This document shows positions 3,970 through 31,735 of a stretch of DNA of 64,000 bases, one piece after another. A program made the position numbers and the translations under genes. The notes under the pieces are model-generated. The model was not told the origin of the DNA and did no database searches. It saw only the letters and a program-made list of their open reading frames with translations. Source of the DNA: Levilactobacillus yonginensis (GTDB lineage Bacteria > Bacillota > Bacilli > Lactobacillales > Lactobacillaceae); contig NZ_RHNO01000005.1 of assembly GCF_003946265.1 (NCBI RefSeq), positions 62,001 through 126,000 of the forward strand, written 5' to 3'. Each line of letters starts with the position of its first letter. The stretch's first letter is position 1.

Positions 3970-4151
3970 CTCCGGCGGTCAGGGATTCCGCCCGCTGTGG
4001 GGACGCTTCAGACTGGAAAACCACCCGTCTTCTCGCTCGATTTGAAGCCACGAAGAACCCGTGTCTCCAAAGTCGCCCGTGCTGTAAACTGGCTGAGAAA
4101 ACGCCAGCTAACACCACTTTCACAGCGGACTACATCCCTGACCACCTCCGG
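3970..4151 (-). repeat. Structured repeat copy A (sense strand minus)
   Basis: Full-length copy. The closing stem P1 pairs GGTCAGGGAT (3977-3986) with ATCCCTGACC (4134-4143). Inside, P2 pairs CTGGC with GCCAG, P3 is the CACG/CGTG hairpin with GGAG and GGCTTC sides, and P4 is weaker here. Terminal CCGGAG words lie outside the stem on both ends, read on the minus strand. It sits just after the SDR gene. Confidence 0.85.
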
Positions 4152-4425
4152 CTCTGATTGCATTAGCAAGATTGCTGCTGAGGAGCATCTGCACGCCACT
4201 CCTGAAAGGTAAATTGAAGCAACTTTTAGCCAAAATGGAAGGTTTCCTAATTTTCCCCACTATCATTGTCACAACAAGTCCAACTGGCATACAATGCTTT
4301 CAACGTTCGGCTTACAACTGAAGGCTGAAAGCACTGAAACACCCACTATTCCTGATACAACAAGGATTGGGTATTGATGTTTAGTCAGACATTTAAGCTG
4401 GCTTAGTTTCCATGAACCCGTTTAA
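4152..4425. other. Spacer between repeat copies A and B
   Basis: No ORF with a ribosome site and no RNA gene recognised. There is a weak inverted repeat around 4297-4336 (CTTTCA ... TGAAAG). Confidence 0.5.
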
Positions 4426-4600
4426 CCGGAGGGGGTCAGAGGTGGAGCCAGCTGTGTCGACGGTGTTAGCCGATTCTCGGCTTACAGCGTGGGACGTGTT
4501 TGGAGACTGGTGATTTTTTCCAGGCTTCAAACCGAGCCGAAGGACCGATCTTCAGGCCGTAGGCGTTCCCCACAGCAGGCGGAATCTCTGACAGCCGCAG
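4426..4600 (+). repeat. Structured repeat copy B (sense strand plus)
   Basis: P1 pairs GTCAGAG with CTCTGAC. P2 is AGCCG/CGGCT. P3 is GTTTGGAGaCTGG/CCAGgCTTCAAAC, where the inner CTGG/CCAG replaces the CACG/CGTG of other copies, a compensatory change. The GGACCG loop entry and the CCCCACAGC segment of the family are present. Confidence 0.85.
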
Positions 4601-4614
4601 GTCCAATTTCACGT

Positions 4615-4672
4615 CTATAATGCCTTATTATTCTTGGTTTGATAATGATTTTGGAACTTTCACCCTTTATAA
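4615..4672. repeat. Motif shared with 58954-59008, ahead of a terminator
   Basis: About 55 nt sharing an almost unbroken ATTCTTGGTTTGATAA core and a downstream CCCTTTA with the region after the LPQTG gene. In both places a rho-independent terminator follows at once. The role is unknown; it may be the 3' part of a small RNA or a shared 3' UTR. Confidence 0.5.
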
Positions 4673-4676
4673 GTAT

Positions 4677-4718
4677 AAAAAATGACTGTTGCAACCGCAC
4701 AACAGCCATTTTTATTTT
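4677..4718 (+). terminator. Rho-independent terminator, bidirectional
   Basis: AATGACTGTTG/CAACAGCCATT hairpin with an A tract before it and a T-rich tract after it. Confidence 0.8.
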
Positions 4719-4792
4719 CAGTATCATATAACACCATCGACAACCGTCAAGCAATCCACCTAACAAGCAAGCAGTGGCGTCGACTATCTGAG

Positions 4793-4969
4793 CCGCTAGT
4801 GGTCAGGTACGTAGCCCGTGAAGGTCCTGTTAGCCCGAGTGGTTTTCTGGGGCTTACAGGACTAGGACGACCTTTAAGACTCACGGTTCTTGAGGCTTAA
4901 AGGCGAGTCTAAAGACCGCTTCACAGGCTTTAGACGGTCCCACAGGCGGAGCTGCCTGACCACTAGCGG
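4793..4969 (+). repeat. Structured repeat copy C (sense strand plus)
   Basis: P1 is a perfect CCGCTAGTGGTCAGG/CCTGACCACTAGCGG stem. P2 is TCCTGT-t-AGCCC/GGGGCT-t-ACAGGA. P3 is CCTTTAAG/CTTAAAGG. P4 is GTCTAAAG/CTTTAGAC around the conserved ACCGC loop. All four stems have sequences different from the other copies yet remain paired. It ends 10 bp from the stop codon of the DHA2 gene. Confidence 0.9.
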
Positions 4970-4978
4970 CGGACAGTA

Positions 4979-6388
4979 TCACGCCTGTTTCCGACCGTCA
5001 CGAAGCATGGCAGCGAAAATCCAGCCAACAACCGCAACCCCTAGAAATGTCCAGAAAACCGCATGGTACCCGGCTAGGCTAGCGGTAACCGCTGAAGTCA
5101 CCTTCAACTGTCCTGCCGTCACGGTGGCTAAAATCAGGGTTGCCACGGCAACCCCCGTCGATCCCAAAATTTGGCGAACCGTGGTAATTACCGCGGTCCC
5201 ATGAGAAATCAACTGGTCCGGTAAGGAATTAGCCCCCAAAGTCACGGCCGGCATCATCACAAACGCGTTACCCCCTTCAATCAGGGCAGCGATTAAAATC
5301 ATCGCAATCAGTGACTGCTTGCCACCAACCACGGCCAACCATAACCAGCCCAGGACAATCATCGACATCCCAGTCAGCATGGTGGCTTTAAATCCAATAC
5401 GGTCAGCCAATTTCCCTGTCAACGGGTTCAACAAGCTTAGGACCACGGCCCCAGGAACTAAGGCCATCCCCGAAGCAAATGGCGAAATCCCCAGGACTTC
5501 TTGATAGTATAGCGGAAAGACAATCGTAACCACGATTAAAGCAATGTAGGAAGTTCCCGTCAATAAGACGGCCAAGTCAAAGTTGGCTGTCTTCAGCACA
5601 CGCAGATCCAGCAAGGGCGTGGCCACGTGAAATTGGCGAAAGACGAAGTAAGCTACCGCTAGCAGACTGACTACCAGTAGGCCGCCCATCACACCCCAAT
5701 TGACTGCCGCCTTACCGATTTGGTTAACGACGTACAGAATCCCAATAAAACCAACGCTACTGATAACGGACCAGTAGTCCAGGTGGGCCTTGTGCTGGGG
5801 CATGACGTCCTTAATAGTTTTGATGGCAATTAAGAACACAATCGTGATAATCATCATGAAGACAACGAAGAGTCCCTGCCAACTGGTATATTTCAAAACA
5901 ATTCCCGAAATAATTGGACCAACTGCTAATGCCGAACCCATGATCAGTCCAGCAAATCCCATGACGCTCCCTCGCTGCGCTTCTGGGGTGATTCGCAGCA
6001 TCACTGTCTGATAGGACGGAAACATGATGCCGACCGCCATGGCTTCCATGACCCGCCCCAGCATCATTAATGGAAAACTGGTGGCTAAGTAGATAATAAA
6101 CGTCCCAACATCAAACAACGCTAGTACGGTCACAAAGAGCACCGGAAATCGGATATTATTTAACAACCACGGACTGACTGGCATCATCACGACCATCACC
6201 AACATAAATCCCGTCGTCAGCCACTGAACGGTTGACGCTGGCACGTTGAAGTACCGCATCAACGTTGGGTACGCCGTCGACAGCGACGACTGGCTGATCG
6301 ACATGGTAAAGGTCCCCGCCAACAACGTCCAAATAAAGGCCAGATGACTATATGGCCGCCCCTGTAAATCAATTGCCTCTGAATCCAA
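4979..6388 (-). CDS. DHA2-type MFS drug exporter
   Basis: About 469 residues with a very hydrophobic pattern consistent with 14 membrane segments, as in EmrB/QacA proton-driven exporters. Family motifs include STAYPTLMRYF, STVQWLTTGFML, GRVMEAMAVGIMFPS and the motif-C region SALAVGPIISG. A GTG at 6397 abuts the GAGGGA ribosome site directly; the TTG at 6388 lies at normal spacing and is the preferred start. It is monocistronic and convergent with the SDR gene. It resembles the second DHA2 protein at 54399-55841. Export of toxic hydrophobic compounds is inferred from the family. Confidence 0.9.
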   Translation of the reverse strand: MDSEAIDLQGRPYSHLAFIWTLLAGTFTMSISQSSLSTAYPTLMRYFNVPASTVQWLTTGFMLVMVVMMPVSPWLLNNIRFPVLFVTVLALFDVGTFIIYLATSFPLMMLGRVMEAMAVGIMFPSYQTVMLRITPEAQRGSVMGFAGLIMGSALAVGPIISGIVLKYTSWQGLFVVFMMIITIVFLIAIKTIKDVMPQHKAHLDYWSVISSVGFIGILYVVNQIGKAAVNWGVMGGLLVVSLLAVAYFVFRQFHVATPLLDLRVLKTANFDLAVLLTGTSYIALIVVTIVFPLYYQEVLGISPFASGMALVPGAVVLSLLNPLTGKLADRIGFKATMLTGMSMIVLGWLWLAVVGGKQSLIAMILIAALIEGGNAFVMMPAVTLGANSLPDQLISHGTAVITTVRQILGSTGVAVATLILATVTAGQLKVTSAVTASLAGYHAVFWTFLGVAVVGWIFAAMLRDGRKQA

Positions 6389-6489
6389 GACACTCACTCC
6401 CTCACGCTACTTTAGAAACATTATCAACTGGTTTCTATCGTAGTCCTTTTGACGGGGACTGTAAACCGATTGGTCCCTGTTCAATCAAG

Positions 6490-6517
6490 TTACTTATGGC
6501 GCAAACTTTGGTACAAT
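6490..6517 (+). promoter_or_regulatory. Promoter of the 58-aa ORF
   Basis: TTACTT, 16 bp, TACAAT, about 70 bp ahead of the small ORF starting at 6586. Confidence 0.5.
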
Positions 6518-6585
6518 GAAATTATTATGTGGCTGGGTCTTTAAGACCAGTTATTGCGGACTACGCAAAGAATTGAGGGCGGACC

Positions 6586-6762
6586 ATGGACTTAGTGACT
6601 TATTTAAAAGATGAAATTGACTTTCTCACGGAACAAATGAAGCGCGCCGAAGACGAAAAGGATAATTCCATGCACTTCTTATGCGATGCACGGATCACCG
6701 AGGCCAAGCGAATCTTGACTCAGGTCAACGACGGTAAGATCAATCAGCTTAAAGCGGACTAA
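6586..6762 (+). CDS. Small acidic hypothetical protein, 58 aa
   Basis: ATG 6586 behind GAGGGCGG, TAA at 6760-6762. The protein starts MDLVTYLKDEIDF and ends NQLKAD; it is charged and probably all-helical, without membrane or signal segments. A plausible promoter lies upstream and a strong terminator directly downstream, so it is a self-contained transcription unit. I do not recognise the family and give no function. Confidence 0.75.
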   Translation: MDLVTYLKDEIDFLTEQMKRAEDEKDNSMHFLCDARITEAKRILTQVNDGKINQLKAD

Positions 6763-6766
6763 TCAG

Positions 6767-6800
6767 CGACCGAACGAGACTTTTCTCGTTCGGTCGTTCC
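6767..6800 (+). terminator. Rho-independent terminator
   Basis: A 13-bp perfect stem CGACCGAACGAGA/TCTCGTTCGGTCG with a 4-nt loop, 4 nt after the stop of the small ORF. Confidence 0.8.
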
Positions 6801-6887
6801 TGCCGTATCGAACTTATTCGGCTGAGTCGCCTAAATGACTGATTAGGTGTACATTAGAAGTGAACATATTTTTTAGGAGGTAACACG

Positions 6888-7682
6888 TTGATAACCATTA
6901 AATCTGATCGTGAAATTAAGAAAATGGCCGAATCTGGTGCCGTTTTAGCTGGTGTCCACAAGGGCTTACGGGACATCATCAAGCCAGGTATCTCTACCTG
7001 GGAAATCGAACGTTTTGCCAACAAATACATCGCTGAACACGGTGCCACCCCTTCAGAAAAAGGGTTTGAAGGCTACAAGTACGCTACCTGTGTCAGTGTT
7101 AACGACGAAGTGGCCCACGCCATTCCCCGCAAGGAACTCTTGCTCAAGGAAGGCGACATTGTGGCCGTTGACATGACCGTCAACTTAGATGGCTTTGAAA
7201 GTGACTCTTGCTGGACTTACGCCGTTGGTAAAATCAGTGACGAAGCGCAACATCTGATGGATGTTACGAAGAAGTCCCTTTACCTGGGGATTGACCAAGC
7301 CGTTGTCGGTAACCGTATCGGTGACATTGGTCACGCAATTCAGGCTTACACGGAAGGCCAAGAACACATGGGCGATGTCCGTGAACTGATTGGCCATGGG
7401 ATTCAACCAACCATGCATGAACAACCAAACGTTCCTAACTATGGTGAAGCAGGCCGTGGGTTACGTTTGCGGGCTGGCATGACGATTACCATCGAACCCA
7501 TGATCAACTTAGGCACTTGGGAAATTATTTCTAAAGAAGTTCCTGACAAGTCTTGGGAGTACTACGCAACGGCCGATGGCTCATTGTCCGCTCAGTACGA
7601 ACACACGTTGGTGATCACCGACGATGGTCCTAAGATCCTGACGTCACAAGACCCAGATATTGACGCTAAATACTTGCTATAA
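6888..7682 (+). CDS. map: Methionine aminopeptidase, type I
   Basis: 264 residues; removes the initiator Met from nascent proteins in the cytoplasm. The five metal ligands of the pita-bread fold are visible: D95 (VAVDMTVN), D106 (ESDSC), H170 (IGHGI), E203 (TIEPM) and E238 (QYEHT), with a substrate His at about H77. The start is TTG at 6888, seven bases after a perfect AGGAGG. The conserved SVNEVVCHGIP segment is SVNDEVAHAIP here, a normal Lactobacillaceae variant as far as I know. A methyltransferase gene follows after 24 bp. Confidence 0.95.
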   Translation: MITIKSDREIKKMAESGAVLAGVHKGLRDIIKPGISTWEIERFANKYIAEHGATPSEKGFEGYKYATCVSVNDEVAHAIPRKELLLKEGDIVAVDMTVNLDGFESDSCWTYAVGKISDEAQHLMDVTKKSLYLGIDQAVVGNRIGDIGHAIQAYTEGQEHMGDVRELIGHGIQPTMHEQPNVPNYGEAGRGLRLRAGMTITIEPMINLGTWEIISKEVPDKSWEYYATADGSLSAQYEHTLVITDDGPKILTSQDPDIDAKYLL

Positions 7683-7706
7683 TTCAGACTAAAGGAGGTC
7701 ATCTAC

Positions 7707-8423
7707 ATGCCCCTGACCAATCAAACACCTGAAGACCAAGTGCAAGCCACTTTTGATGGTATCGCCCCCCAGTATGATCAGATGAACAATCTAATCAGTC
7801 TGGGGACTCACCGCCTCTGGCGGCAACGCGTGATGGACGCAACCACCATTCATTCGGGTGACTTCGCCCTCGACCTCTGCTGTGGCACCGGCGACTGGAC
7901 GTTGGCGCTGGCAAATGCTGTTGGTCCGGCGGGACGCGTAGTTGGCCTCGACTTTAGTGGCGTCATGTTACGTGAGGCGCGTCCCAAGGTTAAAGCAGCT
8001 GGTTTAACGGACCGCATTACGCTACGTCAGGGGGATGCCATGCACCTCCCCTATCCAGATAACAGTTTTAATCTTGTCACGATTGGCTTCGGCCTTCGTA
8101 ACGTCCCGGATGCAAACCAAGTTTTACGTGAAATGACGCGGGTAGTTAAGCCGGGGGGACAGGTCGTTTGTCTGGAGACTTCACAACCAACCAATCCAGT
8201 GATTCACACAGGCTGGCAAGTTTACTTCGGTCACATCGTGCCCTTGATGGGTAAGCTGGCGCACCATTACCAAGCCTACAATTACCTGCAACAGTCGACA
8301 CATCAATTCGTGAGTGTGACTGAGCTGGCTACAATGTTTCGGGATGCTGGCCTCCGTCAGGTTCATTATCAGCAATTCAACTTGGGTGCGGCCGCGGTAC
8401 ACTTTGGCCGTAAGCCTTACTAA
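7707..8423 (+). CDS. UbiE/MenG family demethylmenaquinone methyltransferase
   Basis: 238-residue SAM-dependent C-methyltransferase, class I fold. Motifs: FDGIAPQYDQMN at the N-terminus, SAM loop LDLCCGTGDW, acidic residue in GLDFSG, QGDAMHLPYPDNSF and GFGLRNVPD, all typical of UbiE/MenG. The family methylates demethylmenaquinone in the last step of menaquinone synthesis. No other men gene is visible here, so a menaquinone role is an inference from family. AAAGGAGG lies before the ATG. It follows map closely and ends at a strong terminator. Confidence 0.88.
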   Translation: MPLTNQTPEDQVQATFDGIAPQYDQMNNLISLGTHRLWRQRVMDATTIHSGDFALDLCCGTGDWTLALANAVGPAGRVVGLDFSGVMLREARPKVKAAGLTDRITLRQGDAMHLPYPDNSFNLVTIGFGLRNVPDANQVLREMTRVVKPGGQVVCLETSQPTNPVIHTGWQVYFGHIVPLMGKLAHHYQAYNYLQQSTHQFVSVTELATMFRDAGLRQVHYQQFNLGAAAVHFGRKPY

Positions 8424-8437
8424 ATCTAAGCTAAACC

Positions 8438-8474
8438 AAAAAAGGTATCGAGACGATTGTCTCGGTACCTTTTT
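8438..8474 (+). terminator. Rho-independent terminator
   Basis: GGTATCGAGAC/GTCTCGGTACC stem with GATT loop, A6 before and T5 after; works in either direction between the convergent methyltransferase and Rgg-like genes. Confidence 0.9.
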
Positions 8475-8494
8475 GCTGTCCAGAACAGCTTTCT

Positions 8495-9349
8495 TTAATC
8501 ATTAAATGGGAATTCTTCAATCATCTGTAATAGCTTCGTATTGCTGTTCAAGCGGGCAAACGCCGAAGCATCTTGGAGGTCCTGCTTAATTTGGTGGGGA
8601 TCTCCTTGCAACCGCTGCTGGTTCAAGGCGCGCTGATACAAGATACGCGCTAAATAGTAGGTCACGTGGAAGCGCGCACAGACCTCAACCCCATAGGTCA
8701 ACAGGTCATTACTATTCTTCAATTCACCATTGCGACCATAAAATTGACCCGTGTAAAAAATAACGTTCAGGGCGCGCCAAATACTGTGACGATTCTTAAA
8801 GCTCAGATTTCGGATCTCACCGGCAACCTTATTGAAGTAGAAACCAGCCCGTTCATCATCATCTTCATTACTATAAGCAATCCCCATCCCAGTGTAAGCC
8901 AGCATGGAATACATAGAGTGATGACCTTCATCGAATCGGTTTAAAATTTGTGAAAAGTCGTAGAGCGAGTCGGCAATGGGACCACCGGTCAGCGCCGTGA
9001 TATACCCCCGAATGAAGTAAAACCGCATTTGAAAGGTCAACGTACCAGTCTCTGGATTGCCTAACTTTTTCAGGCTAGCTGCGGCCTCTTTGTATTCACC
9101 GATCAGCAATTGAAATTCAGCCTGCTCCAACGCCTGCGAACGAACAGAGTCTTCATCATGGTTTAACGGAAAAAGATCATTTAACGTTAATTCTAGACGA
9201 TCGCACAGTTGCAGAAGAATTTTTAAAGAAGGAACTTTGCCGTTACGTTCAAATTTACTGAGAGTTGCTTGTGTACAAATACCGTTAGCCAACTGGTCTT
9301 GCGACAAATGCAGTCGCTTCCGTGTTTCAATAAAAATATCTATATTCAT
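8495..9349 (-). CDS. Rgg/RRNPP-like transcriptional regulator
   Basis: 284 residues: an XRE helix-turn-helix at about 5-60 (LSQDQLANGICTQATLSKFERNG) followed by a helical TPR-like repeat domain with alternating aromatic and Leu residues. This is the layout of Rgg/GadR/MutR and PlcR-type regulators, which often sense short peptides. No small peptide gene is evident next to it, and the neighbouring genes give no target, so peptide control is inference only. The ATG at 9349 has only a weak ribosome site. The gene is convergent with the methyltransferase gene. Confidence 0.82.
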   Translation of the reverse strand: MNIDIFIETRKRLHLSQDQLANGICTQATLSKFERNGKVPSLKILLQLCDRLELTLNDLFPLNHDEDSVRSQALEQAEFQLLIGEYKEAAASLKKLGNPETGTLTFQMRFYFIRGYITALTGGPIADSLYDFSQILNRFDEGHHSMYSMLAYTGMGIAYSNEDDDERAGFYFNKVAGEIRNLSFKNRHSIWRALNVIFYTGQFYGRNGELKNSNDLLTYGVEVCARFHVTYYLARILYQRALNQQRLQGDPHQIKQDLQDASAFARLNSNTKLLQMIEEFPFND

Positions 9350-9410
9350 AAACTTATGCCATCCCTTAAAACGTTATGGGGCTATTATACCAAAATCCCC
9401 CCATCAACGC

Positions 9411-10040: not shown

Positions 10041-10088
10041 GGTTTTAGTCGCTTCCTTTGTTTATTAACATACGTCAAGATTGTCCGC

Positions 10089-10283
10089 CTACGGCCGCCA
10101 GGGAGGGGCCGCTGTGGGGTCGCTGTGGGGTCGCCTTCAGCCCAAATACCGGGCTTTCGGCTCGACTTGAAGTCCCGCCAAAACCGCGGGTCTCCAAGCT
10201 CGACCCATGCTGTAAGACCGGGAAAAACCAACCGCCCGGCCTAACACCATCAACACAGCCGCCCCTCCCTGACGACCTCCGGC
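10089..10283 (-). repeat. Structured repeat copy D (sense strand minus)
   Basis: P1 pairs GGGAGGGGC with GCCCCTCCC. P2 pairs CCGGG with CCCGG, P3 is GACTTGAAG with CTCCAAGCTC, and P4 is the AGCCC/GGGCT hairpin. It carries an internal tandem duplication of the 11-nt unit GCTGTGGGGTC (10111-10132), making it longer than the other copies. Confidence 0.82.
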
Positions 10284-15370: not shown

Positions 15371-15525
15371 GTTTATCAATCACTCCTCTTGTTTTTAATC
15401 ATAACACTTTTTAAAAAGGCCTTGCGAGCGACACTTTTCTAGAGCAACTGAAGGTTGAAAGCTTTTAAAAGCCATAAAGTCGGATATAGAAACAATACTA
15501 GGCGACCTAGTATGTCCTTCCGCCT

Positions 15526-15681
15526 TACCGGCCGCCAGCTATGGGCTGGAACGGTGCGGACACAACTTGAAGCCTCGAAAGCCCCGAGTCTCCAAGCTTG
15601 GTCTTCAGCTAAGTCAGTCGGAAAACCACCGACTAACTAAGCAGAACGACGCGCCTGAGCCCATAGCTGGCGACCTCTCGG
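15526..15681 (-). repeat. Structured repeat copy F (sense minus, lacks hairpin P4)
   Basis: P1 is a perfect CGCCAGCTATGGGCT/AGCCCATAGCTGGCG stem. P2 is AGTCGG/CCGACT extended by GCTTAGT-type pairs. P3 is GAGtCTcCAAG with CTTGAAGcCTCG. The P4 hairpin is missing; only GTGCGGAC remains where other copies have GTGGGGAC. Confidence 0.85.
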
Positions 15682-15782
15682 CTCACAAAGTATTTTGTTG
15701 CCAACTAATCTGCTGTCTGTGAGGCTGCCATACGGGGCGCGAGAAATCTTTCAGCGTTCATCATAACAAAACACAATCAAAC

Positions 15783-15957
15783 CCGAGGTGGCCAGGGATG
15801 TAGCCAGCTGTGAAAGTGGTGTTTGCTGGTGATTTTTGGCCAGCTTACACCACGGGCGACTTTGGAGACACGGGTTCTTCGTGGCTTCAAATCGAGCGAG
15901 AAGCCCGCCCTTTGGCTGAAGCGTCCCCACAGCAGGCGGAATCCCTGGCCACCGGAG
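15783..15957 (+). repeat. Structured repeat copy G (sense strand plus)
   Basis: P1 GGCCAGGGAT/ATCCCTGGCC, then CTGTG/CACAG. P2 is GCTGG/CCAGC inside GTGGTGT/ACACCAC. P3 is identical in sequence to copy A (GGAGACACG ... CGTGGCTTC), so A and G form a subfamily. Confidence 0.88.
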
Positions 15958-16032
15958 TGCAAATTTAGCAGTACCCATTTTGCTAATACTATTAAATCAA
16001 AAATTTATCTTTCAAACTCTAGCAGAACAAAT

Positions 16033-18287: not shown

Positions 18288-18337
18288 TAGCGTCGCCATC
18301 AAGACCAGTCAACTGGTTGTGATAGCGACGTTTTTAT
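18288..18337 (+). terminator. Terminator of the 159-aa gene
   Basis: AGCGTCGC ... GCGACGTTTTT long stem with an inner GACCAGT/ACTGGT hairpin. Confidence 0.88.
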
Positions 18338-18365
18338 TTTGTTCAGTCAAATTGGTGACCCAAAT

Positions 18366-18405
18366 AAAAAACCGGCCTGTTTTATTTGTATAAAACAGGC
18401 CAGCC
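18366..18405 (-). terminator. Terminator for the cytosine deaminase transcript
   Basis: GGCCTGTTTTAT/ATAAAACAGGCC palindrome; the T6 tract is on the minus strand. The transcript of the codA-like gene would therefore run through repeat copy H (antisense strand) before ending here. Confidence 0.75.
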
Positions 18406-18540
18406 ATTAATTAAATTAAGTTTTAAAAGTCTAACTGTGGTAAAAGCTGAGCAACCTAATCCTTGGGCTACATGTTCACAGCAACAACCAGAATTGTGCC
18501 ATTTTAGCAGAACCCTAGTTGCAAGCCCACTCAACCGTAG

Positions 18541-18733: not shown

Positions 18734-19969
18734 TTACAGGTCCAAATGCACCTGCTTCGGATCGGTCTTCACCACAATCTTACCATGGTGAATCGAGTAA
18801 AGAACTTCAGAGCGTTGGTTCAAAGCGTTGTAGAAGTTATCATTATTCATAATAATCAGGTTAGCTGGTTTGCCAGCAGTCAGGCCATAGTGGTCGGTAA
18901 CGTGCATCGCCTTGGCACCGTGGGTCGTCACAAATTGATAGGAATTCATAATGTCGTCGTAGCCCATCATTTGCGTCACATGGATACCCATGTGCAGGGA
19001 GTCTAACATGTTACCATCCCCCATTGGGTACCACGGATCTTTGATGTCATCTTCACCAAAGGCCACGTTAACGCCGGCCGCGTTTAATTCCTTGACCCGC
19101 GTTAACCCGCGACGCTTGGGATAAGTGTCGAATCGGCCACCCAAGTGGGTATTGATCAGTGGATTAGAAATCATGTTGATGTGAGACATCTGCAGTAACC
19201 GCATCAATTTGTAGGCGTAAGCATTGTTGTAAGACCCCATCGCCGTCGTATGACTAGCCGTTACTTGGTCGCCCAAACCGGTCTCCAGTGCTAACGTGGC
19301 CAACGTTTCTAGGCCGCGAGAAGCGGGATCGTCAATTTCATCACAGTGCGCATCAACCAATTTACCGTACTTCTGAGCGAGGTCAACGGCAAAGTGAAGT
19401 GACTCAACACTGTATTCTCGTGTAAATTCAAAGTGAGGAATGGCGCCAATGACGTCCACACCCAACTTGGCAGCTTGTTCCATCAATTCCTTACCATGAG
19501 GGAATGATAAAATTCCTTCTTGTGGGAAAGCTACCAGTTGGAGTTCAATAAAGTCCTTGACCTCATCACGCACCTCAATCAGTGCTTTTAAGGCCGTTAA
19601 GCTAGGATCTGTTACGTCAACGTGAGAACGGACGAATTGAATACCATTGGCCGCTTGACGTTCCAGTGCTTGCCGTGCACGGGTCTTGACGTCTTCAATG
19701 CTCAACGTCTTCTTCCGCTCGGACCAAATACGAATCCCATCAAATAGGGTACCAGACTGGTTCCATTCAGGATCCCCAGCGGTCATGGTGCTATCCAAGT
19801 GAACGTGCGGGTCGACGAACGGTGGCAAAATTAGCTTCCCCGTTGCATCAATTACCTGTTCACCATCTTGGGGTGTCAAATGGTCAGCAATAGCTGTAAA
19901 TTTACCATCCTCAATCCGAATATCTTGTGGTTGCGTTGCGTTCTCAATAAGTCCTTGTTGAATTAACAT
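18734..19969 (-). CDS. codA: Cytosine deaminase
   Basis: 411-residue amidohydrolase, very close along its length to Escherichia coli CodA as I recall it. Features: PPFVDPHVHLD metal-binding HxH, WNQSGTLFDGI, GIQFVRSHVDV, AIPHFEFTRE, DAHCDEIDD, TASHTTAMGSYN, GRFDTYPKRRG and FGEDDIKDPWYP with the metal-binding Asp. It converts cytosine to uracil for pyrimidine salvage. The ATG at 19969 is the family start; the frame extends upstream without support. AGGAGG is 13 bases upstream, slightly far. It forms an operon with a small membrane protein gene 32 bp upstream. A cytosine permease is not adjacent; the NCS1 permease at 60 kb belongs to another operon. Confidence 0.93.
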   Translation of the reverse strand: MLIQQGLIENATQPQDIRIEDGKFTAIADHLTPQDGEQVIDATGKLILPPFVDPHVHLDSTMTAGDPEWNQSGTLFDGIRIWSERKKTLSIEDVKTRARQALERQAANGIQFVRSHVDVTDPSLTALKALIEVRDEVKDFIELQLVAFPQEGILSFPHGKELMEQAAKLGVDVIGAIPHFEFTREYSVESLHFAVDLAQKYGKLVDAHCDEIDDPASRGLETLATLALETGLGDQVTASHTTAMGSYNNAYAYKLMRLLQMSHINMISNPLINTHLGGRFDTYPKRRGLTRVKELNAAGVNVAFGEDDIKDPWYPMGDGNMLDSLHMGIHVTQMMGYDDIMNSYQFVTTHGAKAMHVTDHYGLTAGKPANLIIMNNDNFYNALNQRSEVLYSIHHGKIVVKTDPKQVHLDL

Positions 19970-20001
19970 GCGCGTTAACCTACCTCCTGTACACGATTTT
20001 T

Positions 20002-20298
20002 TCAATAGAAACCGGGAATCGTCAGTCCGAGTAAGAGGACGGTACTGTCTGCGACCATCCCTGCCGTGACCAAGATAGCCAAGCAGGTGGCCGGCACTAA
20101 ACACCACCAAGGGCTCCGTCTAGCGAAGTGAACGATTCCTATTAAGCTTATCACAGTTAACCCTAGTCCGAGCGTCAAAGTCACCGGTTCGTTGTGAAAT
20201 AGTTGATAAAGACTATTGAACGCCCCCGACAAGGCCGCCCAACTCGCCAACGCACCGAATCCCAACCAAATGCCTAAATACCCGATACTTTTGGTCAT
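20002..20298 (-). CDS. Small membrane protein upstream of codA
   Basis: 98 residues with three hydrophobic segments (about 10-30, 38-58, 65-95) and little loop sequence. The ATG at 20298 follows GGGGGGAG. It ends 32 bp before codA and is presumably cotranscribed. No family recognised; a transport or membrane role linked to pyrimidine salvage is only a guess from position. Confidence 0.75.
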   Translation of the reverse strand: MTKSIGYLGIWLGFGALASWAALSGAFNSLYQLFHNEPVTLTLGLGLTVISLIGIVHFARRSPWWCLVPATCLAILVTAGMVADSTVLLLGLTIPGFY

Positions 20299-23514: not shown

Positions 23515-23624
23515 CCAGCACAACTCCCTTTATTAGATGAATTTATCGTAACCGTTTTCATAATAGAACACAAGCATTTTACCTGTCACTTGATAGGTGA
23601 AATACTTACCGACATTTGGACACA

Positions 23625-23658
23625 AAAAAACCACCGACACACAGTCGGTGGTTTTTTC
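23625..23658. terminator. Bidirectional terminator after cspA
   Basis: ACCACCGAC/GTCGGTGGT stem with A7 before and T6 after. Confidence 0.9.
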
Positions 23659-23682
23659 AAACTCGATTTAGGCTAAAATAAA

Positions 23683-23886
23683 TTAGTCAACAACCGAAAC
23701 GTTAGCAGCTTGTGGGCCACGGTCGCCTTGTTCTACATCAAGGGATACGTGTTGGCCTTCTTCAAGCGTCTTGAAGCCTTCACTGTTGATAGCAGAGAAG
23801 TGAACGAAAACGTCTGAGCCGTTTTCCAAAGTGATGAAGCCGTAACCTTTATCAGCGTTGAACCATTTAACAGTACCTTGTTCCAT
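23683..23886 (-). CDS. cspA: Cold shock protein
   Basis: 67-residue OB-fold nucleic-acid chaperone. RNP1 (KGYGFI) and RNP2 (VFVHFSAI) are intact, with the usual [11 protein letters not shown] start and GPQAANV end. It destabilises RNA structure at low temperature and in growth. GGAGG precedes the ATG at 23886; a longer frame upstream is only open leader. The promoter is about 115 bp upstream, leaving the long 5' UTR typical of cold-shock mRNAs. Confidence 0.96.
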
Positions 23887-24037
23887 AAGAATGAAACCTC
23901 CATGCGCATAGCGCAATAATATTTGCATTTGAAAGCTGGGGTAAAAAGGAGCCATTCTTAAAGAACGTCGAGCCTTTAAAACTTCCGAACCATAAATACA
24001 TTAACAATAGGATAACAGGTATTCCGCAGAATAGCAA
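23887..24037 (-). promoter_or_regulatory. cspA promoter and long 5' leader
   Basis: Minus-strand TTGCTA (24032-24037), 17 bp, TATCCT (24009-24014). The leader is about 115 nt, consistent with post-transcriptional cold induction (family knowledge). Confidence 0.65.
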
Positions 24038-26228: not shown

Positions 26229-26420
26229 TCTGCTACCTCCTCTAATGGTTCCCAGTGGCAACCAAGTTTGGCAGCACCGCTCCTAGGAACCGAGACTTAA
26301 TTTTTACATTCTAGCGAATTTCACTGGCCACGACAAGCTAACGGCCCAGCAACGCTTGACGCCACCCCAGGACTCCCCTATTATCAGAGAAGATATTACA
26401 TAGATAACGGAGTGGTAAAT

Positions 26421-28073
26421 GTGAAACGATGGGGACTCGTTATAGGTCTTGGGTTACTCTGTTTCGGCCTAACTAGCTGCAGTATTAGCCAGCGGGCAGA
26501 TTCAACCAGTGACAGTCAAGGCGTGATGACCAGAAAACAGGTGTTAACGCTAGCTACCAGCCGGCCGTTAACCACTTTAGACACGGATAAAATGACTGAA
26601 TTTGGTCGCCTGAATAACACGATTGAGGGTCTCTACACCACTACGGATAATGGACAAGCGGCATTAGCACTCGCACAAAAGGTTAAGGTCAATGCCAGTA
26701 AGACGACCTACACGTTTACGTTATGGAAGGATTCCTATTGGAGTAATGGGGACCGCATCACAGCCAAGAACTTCGTTTACTCCTGGCAGCGGGCTTTAGC
26801 ACCACAGACCAAGGCCCCAAACGCCGACCTTTTTACGGGAATTCACAACGCCCGCAAAATTCTTGACGGTAAACTTCCCGCCAGTGAATTGGGCGTTTCG
26901 GCACCCAGCAAATTCAAACTGATCGTCCACCTTGACCATCCGATGGCCGAACTGCCACAACGCCTAGCATACCCCCTGTTTGGCCCCCAGAACCAAAAAA
27001 TCGCTGAAAAATATGGCAAAAAATACGCCACCAAGCCCCAATACCAAGTCTACGCTGGGCCATTTATGGTCGGCACGCAGGGCAATACCCAGACCCACTG
27101 GCACATGGTTCCCAATCCGCACTACTGGGACAAACAGCACGTGTACCTCCAACGAATCAACGTTGACGTCTATAACAACACGTCTAGCATGTGGCAGGAC
27201 TACCGCAAAGGGACGCTAGATGAAGTGCGGTTGGTCTCCACGCAAAACATTAAATCGTATCAGAAACAGACAGCCTATACGGCACGGCCCTATTCTAAGA
27301 TGGTCATTTTAAATTACCGGCAGCAGGGCCCCAATCCCCTCGTTAATCAATTGTTACAGCAACGGCTTGCGCGACTTGCCATTTCTCATATTCTGAATCG
27401 TAAGAAATTGGGACAAGCCTCATACGGCGTGACCTCACTTCCCGCCCAAGGTGTCGTCCCAGCCGGATTAAGTCGGGGGCAAAAGGGAACGGCCGACTTT
27501 GCCGCTGCCCAGCCCAAGCAGGAAACCCTGGCCTACCAACCTAAGCTTGCCAAACAAGAATGGCAAACGGCTCGTCGCCGAGCGGGGGTTAAAAACGTCA
27601 CCCTATCCCTAAGTTATCTACGTGCTCCCAACAGTCTTAAAGTAGCAAAAGCCTTGCAACGCCAGCTCACCAGCTTGCCTGGACTGACCATCAAACTCAA
27701 GTCTCGCGAGTGGGCGGTCAATCAATCGGATGGTCCAACCGACACTGACCTAACGCTGGCAACACAACACGCCCAGTATGCCGACCCCCTGGCAATGCTG
27801 GCCCTCTTCACTAGCTCCAACATGGCCAACACAGGCCACTGGTCCAGTGCGGCGTACGATAAGCTCATCGCCCAGGCTAGCAACGCCCCGTCGTTTAACA
27901 ATCGCCGATGGCGGACCCTGCTTGCGGCTGAAAGCCGTTTAATGCAGGATCAAGGTGTCACACCACTGTTCCAACCGGCTAGCACGTACTTGATCAATCC
28001 TAAGCTAAACGGCGTGCAATACAACACCGTGGGGACGCAGTCCAACTTTAAGGAAGCCTACTTTGTGAAATAA
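26421..28073 (+). CDS. Oligopeptide ABC transporter substrate-binding lipoprotein
   Basis: About 550 residues, family 5 solute-binding protein (OppA/DppA). A lipoprotein signal peptide ends in the lipobox LTSC, so the protein is anchored outside the membrane. Core signs are WSNGDRITAKNFVYSW, YPLFGPQNQKIAEKYGKKYA and the NAQYADPLAML-type C-terminal lobe. No permease or ATPase gene adjoins it, so it must serve a transporter encoded elsewhere. The GTG at 26421 is eight bases after GGAG; GTG 26412 overlaps the site. It is paralogous to the protein at 37675-39315. Confidence 0.92.
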   Translation: MKRWGLVIGLGLLCFGLTSCSISQRADSTSDSQGVMTRKQVLTLATSRPLTTLDTDKMTEFGRLNNTIEGLYTTTDNGQAALALAQKVKVNASKTTYTFTLWKDSYWSNGDRITAKNFVYSWQRALAPQTKAPNADLFTGIHNARKILDGKLPASELGVSAPSKFKLIVHLDHPMAELPQRLAYPLFGPQNQKIAEKYGKKYATKPQYQVYAGPFMVGTQGNTQTHWHMVPNPHYWDKQHVYLQRINVDVYNNTSSMWQDYRKGTLDEVRLVSTQNIKSYQKQTAYTARPYSKMVILNYRQQGPNPLVNQLLQQRLARLAISHILNRKKLGQASYGVTSLPAQGVVPAGLSRGQKGTADFAAAQPKQETLAYQPKLAKQEWQTARRRAGVKNVTLSLSYLRAPNSLKVAKALQRQLTSLPGLTIKLKSREWAVNQSDGPTDTDLTLATQHAQYADPLAMLALFTSSNMANTGHWSSAAYDKLIAQASNAPSFNNRRWRTLLAAESRLMQDQGVTPLFQPASTYLINPKLNGVQYNTVGTQSNFKEAYFVK

Positions 28074-28108
28074 CCTGACTAGATTTCAGTTGAAATGATC
28101 CAATTTAA

Positions 28109-28144
28109 AAGAGAGGACTCGCTACGTGGCGGGTCCTCTCTTTG
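28109..28144 (+). terminator. Rho-independent terminator
   Basis: AAAGAGAGGAC ... GTCCTCTCTTT stem with inner CGC/GCG. Confidence 0.88.
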
Positions 28145-28165
28145 TTTATATTGATAATTTGCGCT

Positions 28166-28336
28166 CTCCGGCGACCAGAGGTGGGGCCTGCTGTGGGGAC
28201 GCTTCAGCCAAAAAACGGGCTTCCCGCTCGTTTTGAAGCCACGAAGCCCCCATGTCTTCAAAGACGCCCATGTCGTAAGCTAGCAAAAAACGCTAACTAA
28301 CGACATTTTCACTGCTGACCCCACCCCTAGCCGCCG
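28166..28336 (-). repeat. Structured repeat copy I (sense strand minus)
   Basis: CTCCGG terminus at 28166. Conserved GTGGGGACGCTTCAGCC, P3 GTTTTGAAG/CTTCAAAGAC and P2 TAGC/GCTA are present. The P1 stem is interrupted (GGGGCC side against GACCCCACC), making this one of the less regular copies. It is 17 bp from copy J. Confidence 0.8.
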
Positions 28337-28353
28337 TTACTCACAACATGAGT

Positions 28354-28532
28354 CGGAGGCCGTCAGGGAGGTAATTCGCAGTGACAACGGTGTTATTTGG
28401 CGTTCTGGGCCAAATTACACCGTGGGACGGGGCTGAGACTCGGCGAACTTTCCGAGGCTTAACCCCGTGGGAAAAGACCGCTCTATGGCTTTTCCCGGTC
28501 CCCACAGCGGACCACCTCCCTGACGGCCGGAG
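28354..28532 (+). repeat. Structured repeat copy J (sense strand plus)
   Basis: P1 GGCCGTCAGGGAGGT/ACCTCCCTGACGGCC, then CGCAGTG/CACAGCG. P2 ATTTGGC/GCCAAAT. P3 GGGGCT with CTCGG/CCGAG inside. P4 GGGAAAAG/CTTTTCCC. Ends 18 bp before the stop of the 106-aa gene. Confidence 0.9.
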
Positions 28533-28550
28533 ACGGCAACCAGTTCCGTT

Positions 28551-28871
28551 TTACTGATTACCGTCTAAATGTTCGGTACCTAGTTGTACTACAGCGTCGC
28601 TAACAAATTCGCTAGTGAGCCGCTGCATGGGGGTGAACTCGTGTCGGTCCTTATACGCAACGGGATAAGCCGCAATAACCGCCACCTTCAGACCATTTTC
28701 AGTCAGGAAAATTTGGCCAACACCACGATACTTTCCCTTGCTGTGGCGTCCTGTGCGCCAGGAGTGTAATTTAAAATCGCCATCCGGTTCTCGTTTAATT
28801 TCATACTGGCCAGAAGCGTTCGCAGCCACTGGCACCCCGACGTACTGATTCACGTCATACTTAGCCTTCAT
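28551..28871 (-). CDS. Hypothetical protein coupled to lipoate ligase
   Basis: 106 residues; its ATG overlaps the stop of lplA (ATGA at 28868-28871), so it is translationally coupled. The protein is beta-rich and basic in the middle (KLHSWRTGRHSKGKYRGVGQIF), with no signal peptide. No family recognised. The coupling suggests a function in lipoate handling or in a step sharing regulation with it (inference). Confidence 0.78.
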   Translation of the reverse strand: MKAKYDVNQYVGVPVAANASGQYEIKREPDGDFKLHSWRTGRHSKGKYRGVGQIFLTENGLKVAVIAAYPVAYKDRHEFTPMQRLTSEFVSDAVVQLGTEHLDGNQ

Positions 28872-29905
28872 TCAGCCACCTCCGTGAGTGCCGTGACAAT
28901 TGGCGAAATGGCATCCGCACCAAGAATGGCACTGATTGCTGGCTGAGTCAGTACGGCCTTAACCGCGGCTGGTGTTGTCGCTACACCCACTAACTGCTCG
29001 GCAATCTCAGCTAGTTCTGCGGACGTCCCGACTGTGCCAAAGAAGGCCATCGTCCGGAACTTGTCAGCGTGACGGGTAAAGTTCAAGTGTAATTGCCCCG
29101 TTGCCAATTCAAGCTTACGATACTCGCGAAAACCAGGGTTAGCCCCATAATTCCAAGCATCAGTATCGTACTTTTCGGCTAATCGTTGATCAATAATTTC
29201 CCAGTCATGCGCACTCAAATGGTAAGTCTCAATGTCAGTCAAGTTCTCGACTTCAAAGACGTGACATAGGAGGGCCTCTTTAAATTCTTGAATATCTAGA
29301 TTTCGGTATTCTGGTGCCAAGTACTGCCGCAGATTCGTAATCGTTACCCGGTTAGAATCCACACCCCGGTGCGGCTTGTCACTCGCTGGCAGCAAGGCCT
29401 TGTGCGCGGCATCAACGTTCAAATCATACATAATCGTCCCACCAGCGGCATAACCATCCCCGTTTTTAAACATCGTCATCCCGGAGAATTTCTTGCCGTC
29501 AACGACCAGGGCACTCTTATTACTGATTCCTGGATGCTGTACCCCCATCGCCGTCAGTGCTCGTAAGATTGGTTGGGCAAAGACTGTATAGTCACCAAAT
29601 TTGGACCCATCTTGGGGATCACCGTTGATAATGTGTTCAAAAATCAGATTCCGTTCGTCGTGATAGACTGCGCCACCACCTGACGTCCGCCGCACCAGCT
29701 GAACGTCGTGCTTGGCCAAGTACTTAAAATCGACCTCCATCGTGACGGTTTGATTGATGCCCACAATAACGGCTGGCTGGTTGACGTACATCATCAAACC
29801 GTGTCCTGGTAATTTCAAATCATTGACCAAGTAATTGTCGATTGACTGATTCACAATGGCATCCGTGACGACCTGTCCTTGGCGATTCGTATCAATTAGA
29901 AACAT
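28868..29905 (-). CDS. lplA: Lipoate-protein ligase
   Basis: 345 residues. The BPL/LplA catalytic domain shows the RRTSGGGAVYHD lipoyl-binding loop, GVDSNRVTITNL and the GMTMFKNGDGYAAGGTIMYDLN core; a C-terminal accessory domain follows (KLELATGQLHLNF). It activates free lipoate with ATP and attaches it to Lys of E2 or GcvH-type proteins. It is divergent from a GcvH-like lipoyl protein 156 bp away, a probable substrate. A 106-aa protein gene is coupled downstream. Confidence 0.94.
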   Translation of the reverse strand: MFLIDTNRQGQVVTDAIVNQSIDNYLVNDLKLPGHGLMMYVNQPAVIVGINQTVTMEVDFKYLAKHDVQLVRRTSGGGAVYHDERNLIFEHIINGDPQDGSKFGDYTVFAQPILRALTAMGVQHPGISNKSALVVDGKKFSGMTMFKNGDGYAAGGTIMYDLNVDAAHKALLPASDKPHRGVDSNRVTITNLRQYLAPEYRNLDIQEFKEALLCHVFEVENLTDIETYHLSAHDWEIIDQRLAEKYDTDAWNYGANPGFREYRKLELATGQLHLNFTRHADKFRTMAFFGTVGTSAELAEIAEQLVGVATTPAAVKAVLTQPAISAILGADAISPIVTALTEVAE

Positions 29906-29964
29906 GGGTGACTCTCCCTTCGCTGTGACTAAATTAAGTTCAGTTTAGCATAAGCCCTCAGGCC

Positions 29965-30027
29965 CAACAACTGATAAACGGTGCCGTGAGCAAGTTGTTG
30001 TCAGCGGTTACATCTAAAGCGTATACT
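29965..30027 (+). promoter_or_regulatory. lplA-gcvH-like divergent promoter region
   Basis: CAACAACT (29965-29972) and AGTTGTTG (29993-30000) form an exact inverted repeat. The second arm runs into the GcvH-like promoter: TTGTCA (29998-30003), 18 bp, TATACT (30022-30027). The repeat is placed like an operator for both genes. Confidence 0.55.
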
Positions 30028-30061
30028 AGATTCTAGCAATGACATTAGGGAGGAATACACG

Positions 30062-30445
30062 ATGACTGAACACCCACAATCATTTTGGCAACGACTCATG
30101 AACCTGTTCCGTGGAAAGCACGCGGCCAGCACCCCGACCGTAACCGTCAAAGATGGCGTTTGGCTGGAAATGCGGGACCAGGGACACTACCGCTTAGGTC
30201 TCACTAGCGACGCTTTAGAGCAGATCGGTGACATTAGCTTTGCCGACCTACCAATCCTCGCAGACGACGTCTTAGCCGCCGGAGATGACATCCTAGAAGT
30301 TGAGAGCGACAAGGCTGTCGAAAACTTCAAAACACCCTACGCGGGAACCGTGGTTAAGGTCAATGAGGATCTCGTCACAGATCCCACGGTTATCAACGGC
30401 AACAAGCAGGCTGATAACTGGGTCCTAGACTTACAAGTAGCCTAA
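30062..30445 (+). CDS. GcvH-like lipoyl carrier protein
   Basis: 127 residues. The lipoyl domain has the Lys acceptor in VESDKAVENF (K84) and the GcvH tail pattern YAGTVVKVNEDL, DNWVLDLQV. The protein is much like glycine cleavage H protein, but no GcvP, GcvT or GcvL is in the window. In staphylococci and streptococci a GcvH-like protein works with a dedicated ligase, a macrodomain protein and a SirTM deacylase; no macrodomain or sirtuin is visible here. Its divergent neighbour is lplA. A lipoyl relay or storage role is inferred. AGGGAGG precedes the ATG. Confidence 0.88.
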   Translation: MTEHPQSFWQRLMNLFRGKHAASTPTVTVKDGVWLEMRDQGHYRLGLTSDALEQIGDISFADLPILADDVLAAGDDILEVESDKAVENFKTPYAGTVVKVNEDLVTDPTVINGNKQADNWVLDLQVA

Positions 30446-30467
30446 TTATAGAAATATCAGGTTAAAC

Positions 30468-30510
30468 ATAAAGCAGGTCCGGAAATGGTTTCCGGACCTG
30501 CTTTATGTTT
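30468..30510 (+). terminator. Rho-independent terminator
   Basis: AAAGCAGGTCCGGAAA/TTTCCGGACCTGCTTT perfect stem, works in both directions. Confidence 0.9.
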
Positions 30511-30517
30511 AATAATC

Positions 30518-30718
30518 TTAGCAGTACCTGTCGCTGTGATCATCCTGATACATGTCGGCTGTACTGAAGAAATTAGCATCCGTATCATAGGATGCAGCTA
30601 ACGTATTCTGGACATTGATTTCATCGAACGGGTCCCTCCACTTGGCGCCTAACTGCCACGTTCCTAAGGAGACTTCATTGATATCAAAGTTGGTTTGTCC
30701 AAGTTTATGATACTTCAT
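30518..30718 (-). pseudogene. Aldo/keto reductase remnant (N-terminal 66 residues)
   Basis: The sequence reads MKYHKLGQTNFDINEVSLGTW, then TLAASYDTDANFFSTADMYQ, and stops after SDRYC. This is the first strand-helix units of an AKR barrel, normally about 310-330 residues. The conserved Asp of the FFDTAD motif is Ser here, and the catalytic Tyr/Lys/His lie in the missing part. It is therefore a truncated, decaying gene. A weak ribosome site remains before the ATG. Confidence 0.85.
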
Positions 30719-30928
30719 TCACTGTTCCTACTTTCTCAAGCCAGTCCAACCAGTGCTTATATCGCCTTTTATGCCGACTTTTATTTTGGCCGTCAACGTT
30801 CGCGTGAAACCGGTTGAACAAAATATTTACCATTTCCTCATAAAAGGACTACCATAAAAGTTGAAGCCGGTGGCATATGCCAGTAACACAAACCGCTGAC
30901 CCCAATTTTTATTTGGAGGTAATTGGTT

Positions 30929-31144
30929 ATGGCTGTTGTAGAAAAGACTGCTTTATTGGATGAAAAGATGAGTGAAGTATTTGACTGGTCCGATGCTTCG
31001 TTACCTGTACGGGACGCTTTGTGGGACCACTTCATGGAATCCAATGGTCACAACACCGATGAAACTGAAGCTTCTATGAAGGAAGTCGACGCTAAGTCAG
31101 ACGCTGAAGTCCGTTCTTACGTCGAAGAAAACCTCAAGAAGTAA
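30929..31144 (+). CDS. Small acidic protein, 71 aa
   Basis: ATG 30929 is eight bases after GGAGGT. The protein is acidic and helical (AVVEKTALLDEKMSEVFDWSD ..., ending VEENLKK) with no membrane segment. A strong terminator follows. The codon use and site quality suggest a well-expressed cytoplasmic protein. No family recognised. Confidence 0.8.
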   Translation: MAVVEKTALLDEKMSEVFDWSDASLPVRDALWDHFMESNGHNTDETEASMKEVDAKSDAEVRSYVEENLKK

Positions 31145-31160
31145 CCGGCTGTTTCAACCT

Positions 31161-31200
31161 AAAAAACACCCTGCCATTTATGTGGCGGGGTGTTTTTTTT
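31161..31200 (+). terminator. Rho-independent terminator
   Basis: AAACACCCTGCCA/TGTGGCGGGGTGTTT imperfect stem followed by T8. Confidence 0.88.
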
Positions 31201-31240
31201 ACGGTTAATTCTTAGATGGTTGTGCTCCAATGCTCCAACG

Positions 31241-31411
31241 CTCCGGTGTTCCGGGCGGGCGCCTACTGTGGGGACGCTTCAGCCAAAAATCGGGCTTCTC
31301 GCTCGTTTTGAAGCCACGCAAACCACGTGTCTTCAAAAGCGCCCGTGCTGTAAACTGGAAGCCCACCAGTTAACACCACCTTCACAGTTGCCGCCCGCCC
31401 GGAACACCTCC
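31241..31411 (-). repeat. Structured repeat copy K (sense strand minus)
   Basis: P1 TTCCGGGCGGGC/GCCCGCCCGGAA is perfect. P2 ACTGG/CCAGT, P3 TTTTGAAG/CTTCAAAA with CACG/CGTG inside, and the GTGGGGACGCTTCAGCC motif match copy I closely. Confidence 0.88.
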
Positions 31412-31610
31412 ACTGAGAATCAAACAATATTGAAAGCCACCATATTCCGGCTCTCAAAAGCTCTCAACTACCTGTTTAAAAACAAAAAATGGTCGCCACA
31501 TAACGTGACAACCAGTCCTTGGATTTAACCGATCAATTTTATAAACCATAATTGCTTTGGTAACTATCATAAAAATTAACTAACCCACAATTAATCCAAT
31601 CGCAATCATA

Positions 31611-31735
31611 GCCGCCAGTTGGCCGGGTGAGCGACGGCTGTGTGATTTTCGGGAGGCTTCATGTCGAGGAGCAAGACCGCCCTGTGGCTTGCTCCGGTCC
31701 CCACAGCAGGCGTTCACCCGGCCAGCTGGCGGCGG
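31611..31735 (+). repeat. Structured repeat copy L (sense plus, internal deletion)
   Basis: P1 GCCGCCAG-t-TGGCCGGGTGA with TCACCCGGCCA-g-CTGGCGGC is long and intact, and P4 GAGCAAG/CTTGCTC with ACCG loop and GGTCCCCACAGC is intact. P2 and the 5' half of P3 are deleted, leaving only GGCTTCATGTCGAG of P3. Confidence 0.88.

Follow-up and report, generated by a model that had tools for sequence, protein, structure and literature searches.

A covarying two-junction module carried by MITEs of Levilactobacillus yonginensis and other Lactobacillaceae

The intergenic regions of a 64,000-nt stretch of Levilactobacillus yonginensis (contig NZ_RHNO01000005.1, positions 62,001 to 126,000; hereafter, the window) hold twelve copies of a structured repeat, and these elements are internal modules of miniature inverted-repeat transposable elements (MITEs), here small transposons of lactobacilli that carry no coding sequence. 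One common module is found in three MITE units whose terminal inverted repeats (TIRs) differ. As a tentative best explanation overall, judged from sequence comparison, the fold of the module may be selected while the MITEs propagate, and the module may have a role at the exit of transcripts from the unit. An earlier note on this stretch had listed a MITE among several options, and the TIRs and target duplications described below single out that option.

Carrier units

A unit with the TIR CTAAAGGTTGAAAG and target duplications of 7–8 bp was found in two genera, and it holds two modules as an inverted pair with their 3′ ends outward. Nine copies of L. yonginensis have long flanks in common, the ends of which read CTAAAGGTTGAAAG ... 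CTTTCAACCTTTAG or similar, and two units of this kind lie in the window. Since the flanks of nine units found by pattern at loci of L. yonginensis and of its closest relative used here, L. tongjiangensis (G028), match at 2 to 7 of 8 positions, their target duplications are worn. In G320, a genome of another genus, 132 TIR ends were found within one mismatch, compared with none for the reversed pattern. Nineteen units with this TIR were taken (18 from G320 and one from L. tongjiangensis), 15 of which are composites of 500–556 bp that are 83–98% identical. The covariance model found the right-hand module in all 15 composites. The left-hand one was evident from the alignment, with a partial deletion in L220, and the model located it in the G320 pairs of L190–L192. 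The flanks of the 19 units are repeated at 7 or 8 of 8 positions in ten cases, at 7 of 7 after a shift of one base in seven (by eye), at 6 of 7 in one and not at all in one; three of three further G320 units have flank repeats of 8/8. In G342, which represents a third genus, two other units have one module each, preceded by a leader of about 150–200 nt, and their TIRs are AGGTTCTTTCT and ACGCGTGGTGCTAGTT. The units are short (below about 600 bp) and without a coding gene, as judged by length and alignment, and both a TIR and a target-site duplication were found for them, the TIR not being seen in most copies of L. yonginensis; we infer that these TIR-less copies are old insertions with decayed TIRs.

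An insertion difference was observed near window position 8480, where L. tongjiangensis has a MITE with a short-type module, flanked on both sides by CTGTCTAA (L133:8887-9351, L133 being the L. tongjiangensis stretch orthologous to the window). This unit is absent from L. yonginensis and from genome G032. No clean empty site of a single module was found among the sites inspected, G032 having remnants, larger losses or rewritten sequence there. As a separate observation, a hairpin that resembles a terminator and has tracts of A and T, GGCTAGATATTTTT ... AAAAATATCTAGCC, lies in the leader of sub-family A in G342, for example ahead of L183:14181 and L185:15079, and is a hint of transcription inside the units.

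Several candidates for a mobilizing gene were tried. ISL3 was rejected as the source of the sub-family A TIR, since the sole match of PF01610 in G342 is truncated and has no TIR A nearby; L. yonginensis has two fragments and L. tongjiangensis none. In G320:C5:241500-247000 (L203), two facing TIRs lie 3.7 kb apart, the frames between them look like ordinary genes, and no transposase-looking frame that would mark an autonomous element was seen by eye. The genes between widely spaced divergent copies were also rejected as an autonomous element, as three intervals hold one called gene each and none is transposase-like by eye, with no library search made. Y1_Tnp (PF01797) occurs in 23 of the 35 genomes of the genus without tracking the repeats: it is present in G012 and G025, which have no repeats, and missing, for example, from G002, G003, G021 and G030. 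A link to Y1/RAYT proteins is thus not supported.

Copies in the window

All twelve predicted elements are present, intergenic and fold as had been described. A covariance model, R1, was built from ten of them and recovered all twelve in a search of the window, where every other match, at E values up to 1, is an antisense shadow of one of these places. The two copies outside the training set were recovered with E values of 3e-15 (15526-15680) and 9e-14 (31612-31731). Five modules lie on the minus strand (3970, 10089, 15526, 28166 and 31241). The features are as follows.

3970..4151, minus strand: full-length structured module; R1 156.9 bits; orthologue L. tongjiangensis L133:13706-13887
4318..4670, no strand assigned: MITE unit of 353 bp with TIR CTGAAGGCTGAAAG / CTTTCACCCTTTAT and the module at 4426 as sole module
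4426..4600, plus strand: full-length structured module within unit 4318..4670; R1 150.7 bits
4793..4968, plus strand: full-length structured module; R1 126.8 bits; orthologue L133:12867-13042
10089..10282, minus strand: full-length module with an 11-nt duplication ahead of the P1 return arm; R1 134.2 bits
10382..10560, plus strand: full-length module, divergent partner of 10089; R1 179.7 bits
15448..16022, no strand assigned: MITE unit of 575 bp with TIR CTGAAGGTTGAAAG / CTTTCAAACTCTAG and an inverted module pair
15526..15680, minus strand: short-type module without P4, left pair member; R1 72.7 bits, outside R1 training
15782..15957, plus strand: full-length module, right member of the 15526 pair; R1 174.4 bits
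18541..18720, plus strand: full-length single module; R1 171.6 bits
28166..28340, minus strand: full-length module; R1 152.4 bits
28353..28532, plus strand: full-length module, divergent partner of 28166 with a gap of 12 bp; R1 161.4 bits
31241..31413, minus strand: full-length module; R1 154.4 bits
31612..31731, plus strand: module with P2 and half of P3 deleted; R1 66.5 bits, outside R1 training

The flanks of unit 4318..4670 match at 4 of 8 positions here and at 7 of 8 in its orthologous unit (L133:13174-13537), and those of unit 15448..16022 match at 6 of 8 both here and in its orthologue (L133:1303-1882). The 11-nt duplication of module 10089 is not found in its orthologue. Module 18541 and the stop codon of gene 18734-20110(-) are 14 nt apart, and the module and its flanking sequence are both missing in G032. 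A terminator-like hairpin near 28110-28145 precedes module 28166, which is not recognisable in L. tongjiangensis, and a lipoate ligase gene adjoins module 28354. Module 31241 differs from its L. tongjiangensis counterpart by 8 substitutions in 172 aligned sites. The copy at 31611 is a deletion derivative, as had been proposed, and its orthologue in L. tongjiangensis is intact. Apart from the repeats, the Rfam cspA thermoregulator (RF01766) was matched above its gathering score at 23624-23986 on the minus strand (89.1 bits).

Fold and covariation

Read in one sense, a full copy is closed by P1, a stem with 13 pairs, and contains a further stem inside it, the hairpins P2 and P3 and a variable P4; a short GGG/CCC stem closes P3 and P4, which gives two nested three-way junctions. 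The layout of P1 with P2–P4, claimed by the earlier note for each element, was found in the full copies and not in 15526, which lacks P4 and belongs to a shorter sub-family. The example arms that had been given for P1 and P4 were all found in the sequence. Most of the conserved words described as single-stranded take part in pairing: P2 is formed by GGTGTT and TTACA, while GGTCCCCACAG contributes CCC, the partner of GGG, and CAC, the partner of GTG. Conservation extends past P1 as far as a left-hand GTAG and a right-hand GCGGC. Among 64 unique copies of L. yonginensis, from which nine copies in MITE flanks were excluded, the left border has G in 53%, T in 65%, A in 81% and G in 78%; CTAG, not GTAG, is dominant in G342. 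By eye, symmetric purine loops replace in many copies the Watson–Crick pairs of other copies. In P4 the internal loop has GAA opposite GAA, and the foot of P1 has GGA opposite GGA, which creates a terminal direct repeat, CCGnAGG.

When three of the twelve copies were folded alone, z values of −8.7, −10.3 and −8.8 against shuffles were obtained. In an alignment of ten window copies, 39 of 62 pairs showed a double change, and 84 double-change cells were counted compared with 28.2 after shuffling, a value reached by none of 500 shuffles. In 137 copies of the genus, 60 of 62 pairs covaried with 1575 double-change cells against 401 shuffled, and sliding the partner by one to three columns gave at most 235. 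All 13 pairs of P1 covaried in these copies, although its arms lie about 150 nt apart. Similarly, six genomes that each represent a further genus (54 aligned rows, including one antisense duplicate) gave 55 of 62 pairs and 757 cells against 191 shuffled. Because the model guided these alignments and shuffling takes no account of relatedness, comparisons of orthologues were added. In 15 comparisons with L. tongjiangensis or G032, six double changes that keep the pair were found, compared with a null mean of 1.3 (maximum of 5 in 1000), and 32 pairs were broken compared with 42.9 under the null, none of 1000 trials being as low. A further double change, from C-G to A-T in P1, was seen in the alignment of the short copy 15526 with L. 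tongjiangensis. The proposed covariation is real.

No Rfam family overlapped the elements at the gathering score or, in window positions 1–32,000, at E up to 10; two weak matches at chance level lie near elements (4297-4340 and 18301-18425).

Copy number and distribution

The L. yonginensis genome contains at least 150 matches, 150 of 1308 candidates having been scored. In 444 kb, partly selected for matches already known, 103 non-overlapping matches were found, of which 73 are at least 168 nt long and 24, the shorter sub-family, measure 138–167 nt. Matches occur in 33 of 35 genomes of the genus, its own included, and none was found in G012 and G025. Across Lactobacillaceae, where strict filters were applied and six candidates were scored in each genome, at least 122 of 397 genomes and at least 13 of 40 genera match, and in a sample of the order 12 of 295 genomes match, all labelled Lactobacillaceae. 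No match was obtained from 72,556 plasmid records with three queries or from 50,697 phage records with one query, searches that may have left out records very near to this genome. A literature search covering mostly sources other than subscription journals gave no description of the repeats or the TIR strings among the matches listed, and the accessible part of PMC2267715 contains nothing on these repeats. The repeats make up a large share of the long intergenic regions in this food-fermentation genus, and covariance models are now available for annotating them.

Position relative to genes

Genes were called with a home-made caller, and terminators were located with a home-made scan. With four shorter matches excluded, the 444 kb hold 99 copies of at least 120 nt, and any overlap of these with a called gene was 25 nt or less. 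Of 41 neighbouring copies within 1 kb of each other, 36 were divergent, five tandem and none convergent; in other genera, 11 of 12 neighbours within 700 bp were divergent and one was tandem. Compared with independent filling of intergenic ends, paired elements were found more often between tandem genes (15 vs 3.2), convergent genes (17 vs 9.4) and divergent genes (4 vs 0.4). The members of a pair are not inverted duplicates of each other; this idea was rejected because their mean identity (0.631 in 20 full-full pairs) is close to that of all full copies (0.647). In L. tongjiangensis (L046:8036-8177), a divergent pair looks fused, each P1 arm coming from a different member, and inverted pairs may flip or fuse.

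In 94 of 99 copies, and in 24 of 25 single copies, a gene lay closer to the 3′ end than to the 5′ end; as the module lies close to one end of the unit, its 3′ end comes nearer to the next gene. The gene beyond the 3′ end ran antiparallel to the element in 70 of 99 cases. In G342, the rule for the 3′ end is weaker (22/30), and in 19 of 30 cases the gene past the 3′ end has the same orientation as the element.

Resident copies and orthologues

Retained orthologues change more slowly than their surroundings. In 16 comparisons of L. yonginensis with L. tongjiangensis, the elements differed by 4.7% and the flanks by 11.1%, whereas in seven comparisons with G032 the values were 8.4% and 15.8%. Overall, 21 of the 23 retained orthologues were slower than their own flanks. 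Copies in a near-identical tract, weak matches and short matches were excluded from this set, in which copies of the same region share one flank value.

G032 lost many copies by deletion. In 60 kb of G032 that correspond by synteny to the initial 46 kb of the window and the adjoining stretch to its left, R1 gave no match at E 1e-4, although at least 77 matches were found elsewhere in that genome. One G032 deletion spans the interval between terminal direct repeats and leaves GTAGCCGAAGGCGG, and two elements within a nearly identical tract of L. yonginensis and G032 are gutted in the latter. Separately, about 37 kb of L. yonginensis (G000:C23, about 120,000-157,600; L049, L050) is 98–99.96% identical to G032:C1 (L152, L153), whereas its neighbours are 87–93% identical; this reflects recent exchange or contamination of one assembly, and G032 is rated 3% contaminated.

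Strand preference of the fold

Single changes within pairs were compared as G.U and A.C counts on the sense strand of the element. Among 73 full copies, with P4 and one fixed wobble set aside, the ratio was 133:34, and it was 241:69 among 137 copies. Variants common to at least two young G320 units comprised eight G.U, one A.C and five double changes. The fold seems to be selected on one strand while units propagate, and less clearly, or in a strand-neutral manner, once the copies are resident, the numbers being small. The earlier alternative of selection on the fold or a process that keeps the arms complementary looks like a mixture, in which propagated variants favour G.U on one strand and resident changes do not.

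Role of the module

As units with different ends, and hence probably different transposases, share the module, host machinery is the likelier partner, and the module more likely meets this machinery than a transposase. In an inverted-pair unit, a transcript arriving from either side meets exactly one sense module, at its exit. From this arrangement and from the presence of one module behind different TIRs, we infer with modest confidence a transcript-exit module that would work in whichever orientation the unit lands. The least certain step is the proposed action of the folded RNA at the exit, where transcription would be slowed or ended, or a stable 3′ end would be set. An insertion would then be harmless in either orientation, and insertions with an intact fold would be those retained. 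A broader proposal is possible and held with less confidence: the module would be a transferable RNA device, in which one two-junction fold, placed in at least three MITE units with different ends across Lactobacillaceae and arranged as an inverted pair, so that each transcript leaving the insertion would bear one folded copy, would silence insertions through host RNA polymerase or nucleases. Such a device, if true, would help to explain the tolerance of so many insertions in a 2.7 Mb genome. If the module does render insertions harmless, it would also offer a testable reason why many non-coding insertions persist in small genomes.

Several results weigh against the proposed transcript-exit module and its MITE origin. 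Neither a T-run at the 3′ border nor a promoter word at the 5′ border is enriched. Eight of 13 genes that are followed first by a sense module keep their own terminator ahead of it; thus, the module is no terminator replacement. No transposase was tied to any TIR in the searches made. Target duplications in G342 are clear in one of four units of sub-family A and two of three of sub-family B. In the automatic flank scan at a score of at least 12, which misses G342 units that the alignment shows, most copies of L. yonginensis show no TIR (one was found in 7/97, with 2.6 expected by chance at a null of 0.027); G342 gave 1/30 (null of 0.044) and other genera 6/23 (null of 0.116). The G.U to A.C ratio shows no bias in the single differences of orthologues (26:23), in G342 (38:36) or in the private one-side changes of young G320 units (11:9, with 8 others, beside 10 double changes), and is weak in other genera (41:22). 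The strand bias is therefore not general. Arm-to-arm correction also accounts for the orthologue data.

This last process would make the repeat a hairpin-rich passenger with no selected function, in which template switching within imperfect inverted repeats during replication copies one arm onto the other and thereby preserves their complementarity. It is rather unlikely. In the 15 orthologue comparisons, stems differed by 5.0% and unpaired sites by 9.6%, which is near the flank value. The excess of double changes in orthologues, the single changes without strand preference and the common deletions within elements in G032 all fit such correction, and so do the private changes of young units, of which 10 are double and 28 affect one side. 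However, it leaves unexplained the G.U excess among old paralogues, the bulges and junction words conserved across genera and the same two-junction layout in units with different TIRs, and P1 covaries throughout despite the distance between its arms.

A signal at the level of DNA is unlikely, although the placement of the module close to unit ends, with its 3′ end outward, would suit one. Here, a single-stranded or cruciform fold would aid excision, capture or replication-coupled insertion, or would bind a host DNA factor. Fold selection, which is visible in the lineage of propagating units but not clear in copies that are resident, agrees with this, as does GTAG at the stem foot, which recalls the repetitive extragenic palindromic (REP) sequences cut by RAYT on single strands in the accessible text of PMC3733652. 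A module found in three units with different TIRs is, however, an improbable mark of one transposase, and the distribution of Y1_Tnp does not follow the repeats.

The mRNA 3′ processing module considered in the earlier note, by which a repeat in the 3′ untranslated region (UTR) of a neighbouring gene would act as a stabiliser or processing site, is very unlikely and unsupported, because in 70 of 99 copies the gene past the 3′ end has the opposite orientation to the element. Convergent genes have 44 elements for 40 intergenic regions of at least 100 nt between them, and 34 genes have an antisense element within 60 nt past the stop with no terminator between, so that the mRNA should carry it, yet these mRNAs hold the antisense strand while the G.U:A.C ratio there is 46:13 on the sense strand, and where the antisense element is at least 60 nt away a terminator comes first in 27 of 35 cases. 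The transcript-exit module, with a fold that may be selected during propagation, is our tentative preference.

Comparison with known systems

MITEs are usually regarded as passive transposon leftovers. The strongly covarying module in units with different ends suggests that the selecting agent may be other than a transposase. In Bacillus, bcr1 is about 155 nt long and has a conserved fold. The repeats bcr1, bcr2 and bcr3 of the B. cereus group are high-copy, intergenic, MITE-like in structure and function and often located in UTRs, and one module in units with different TIRs is not mentioned in the accessible text of that report (PMC3446304). The likeness of the bcr repeats to the present elements is one of description, and they were reported from the B. 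cereus group. BOX and RUP are modular in build and have a folded part. These small interspersed repeats belong to a Gram-positive species, Streptococcus pneumoniae (PMC3049150, as far as its accessible text describes them), and they resemble the present repeats by description only. Structured RNAs in Rfam have covarying folds of comparable strength, whereas the present elements match no family.

The GTAG REP sequences and bacterial interspersed mosaic elements moved by RAYT, as presented in the accessible part of PMC3733652, in which the words Lactobacillus and Firmicutes are absent, have in common with the present elements GTAG at the stem foot, inverted pairs and many intergenic copies. A dedicated RAYT gene accompanies those repeats, whereas PF01797 does not track the present modules. 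In addition, REPs are palindromes of 20–40 bp, whereas the present elements are 140–195 nt long, contain two junctions and lie within units that have TIRs and target duplications.

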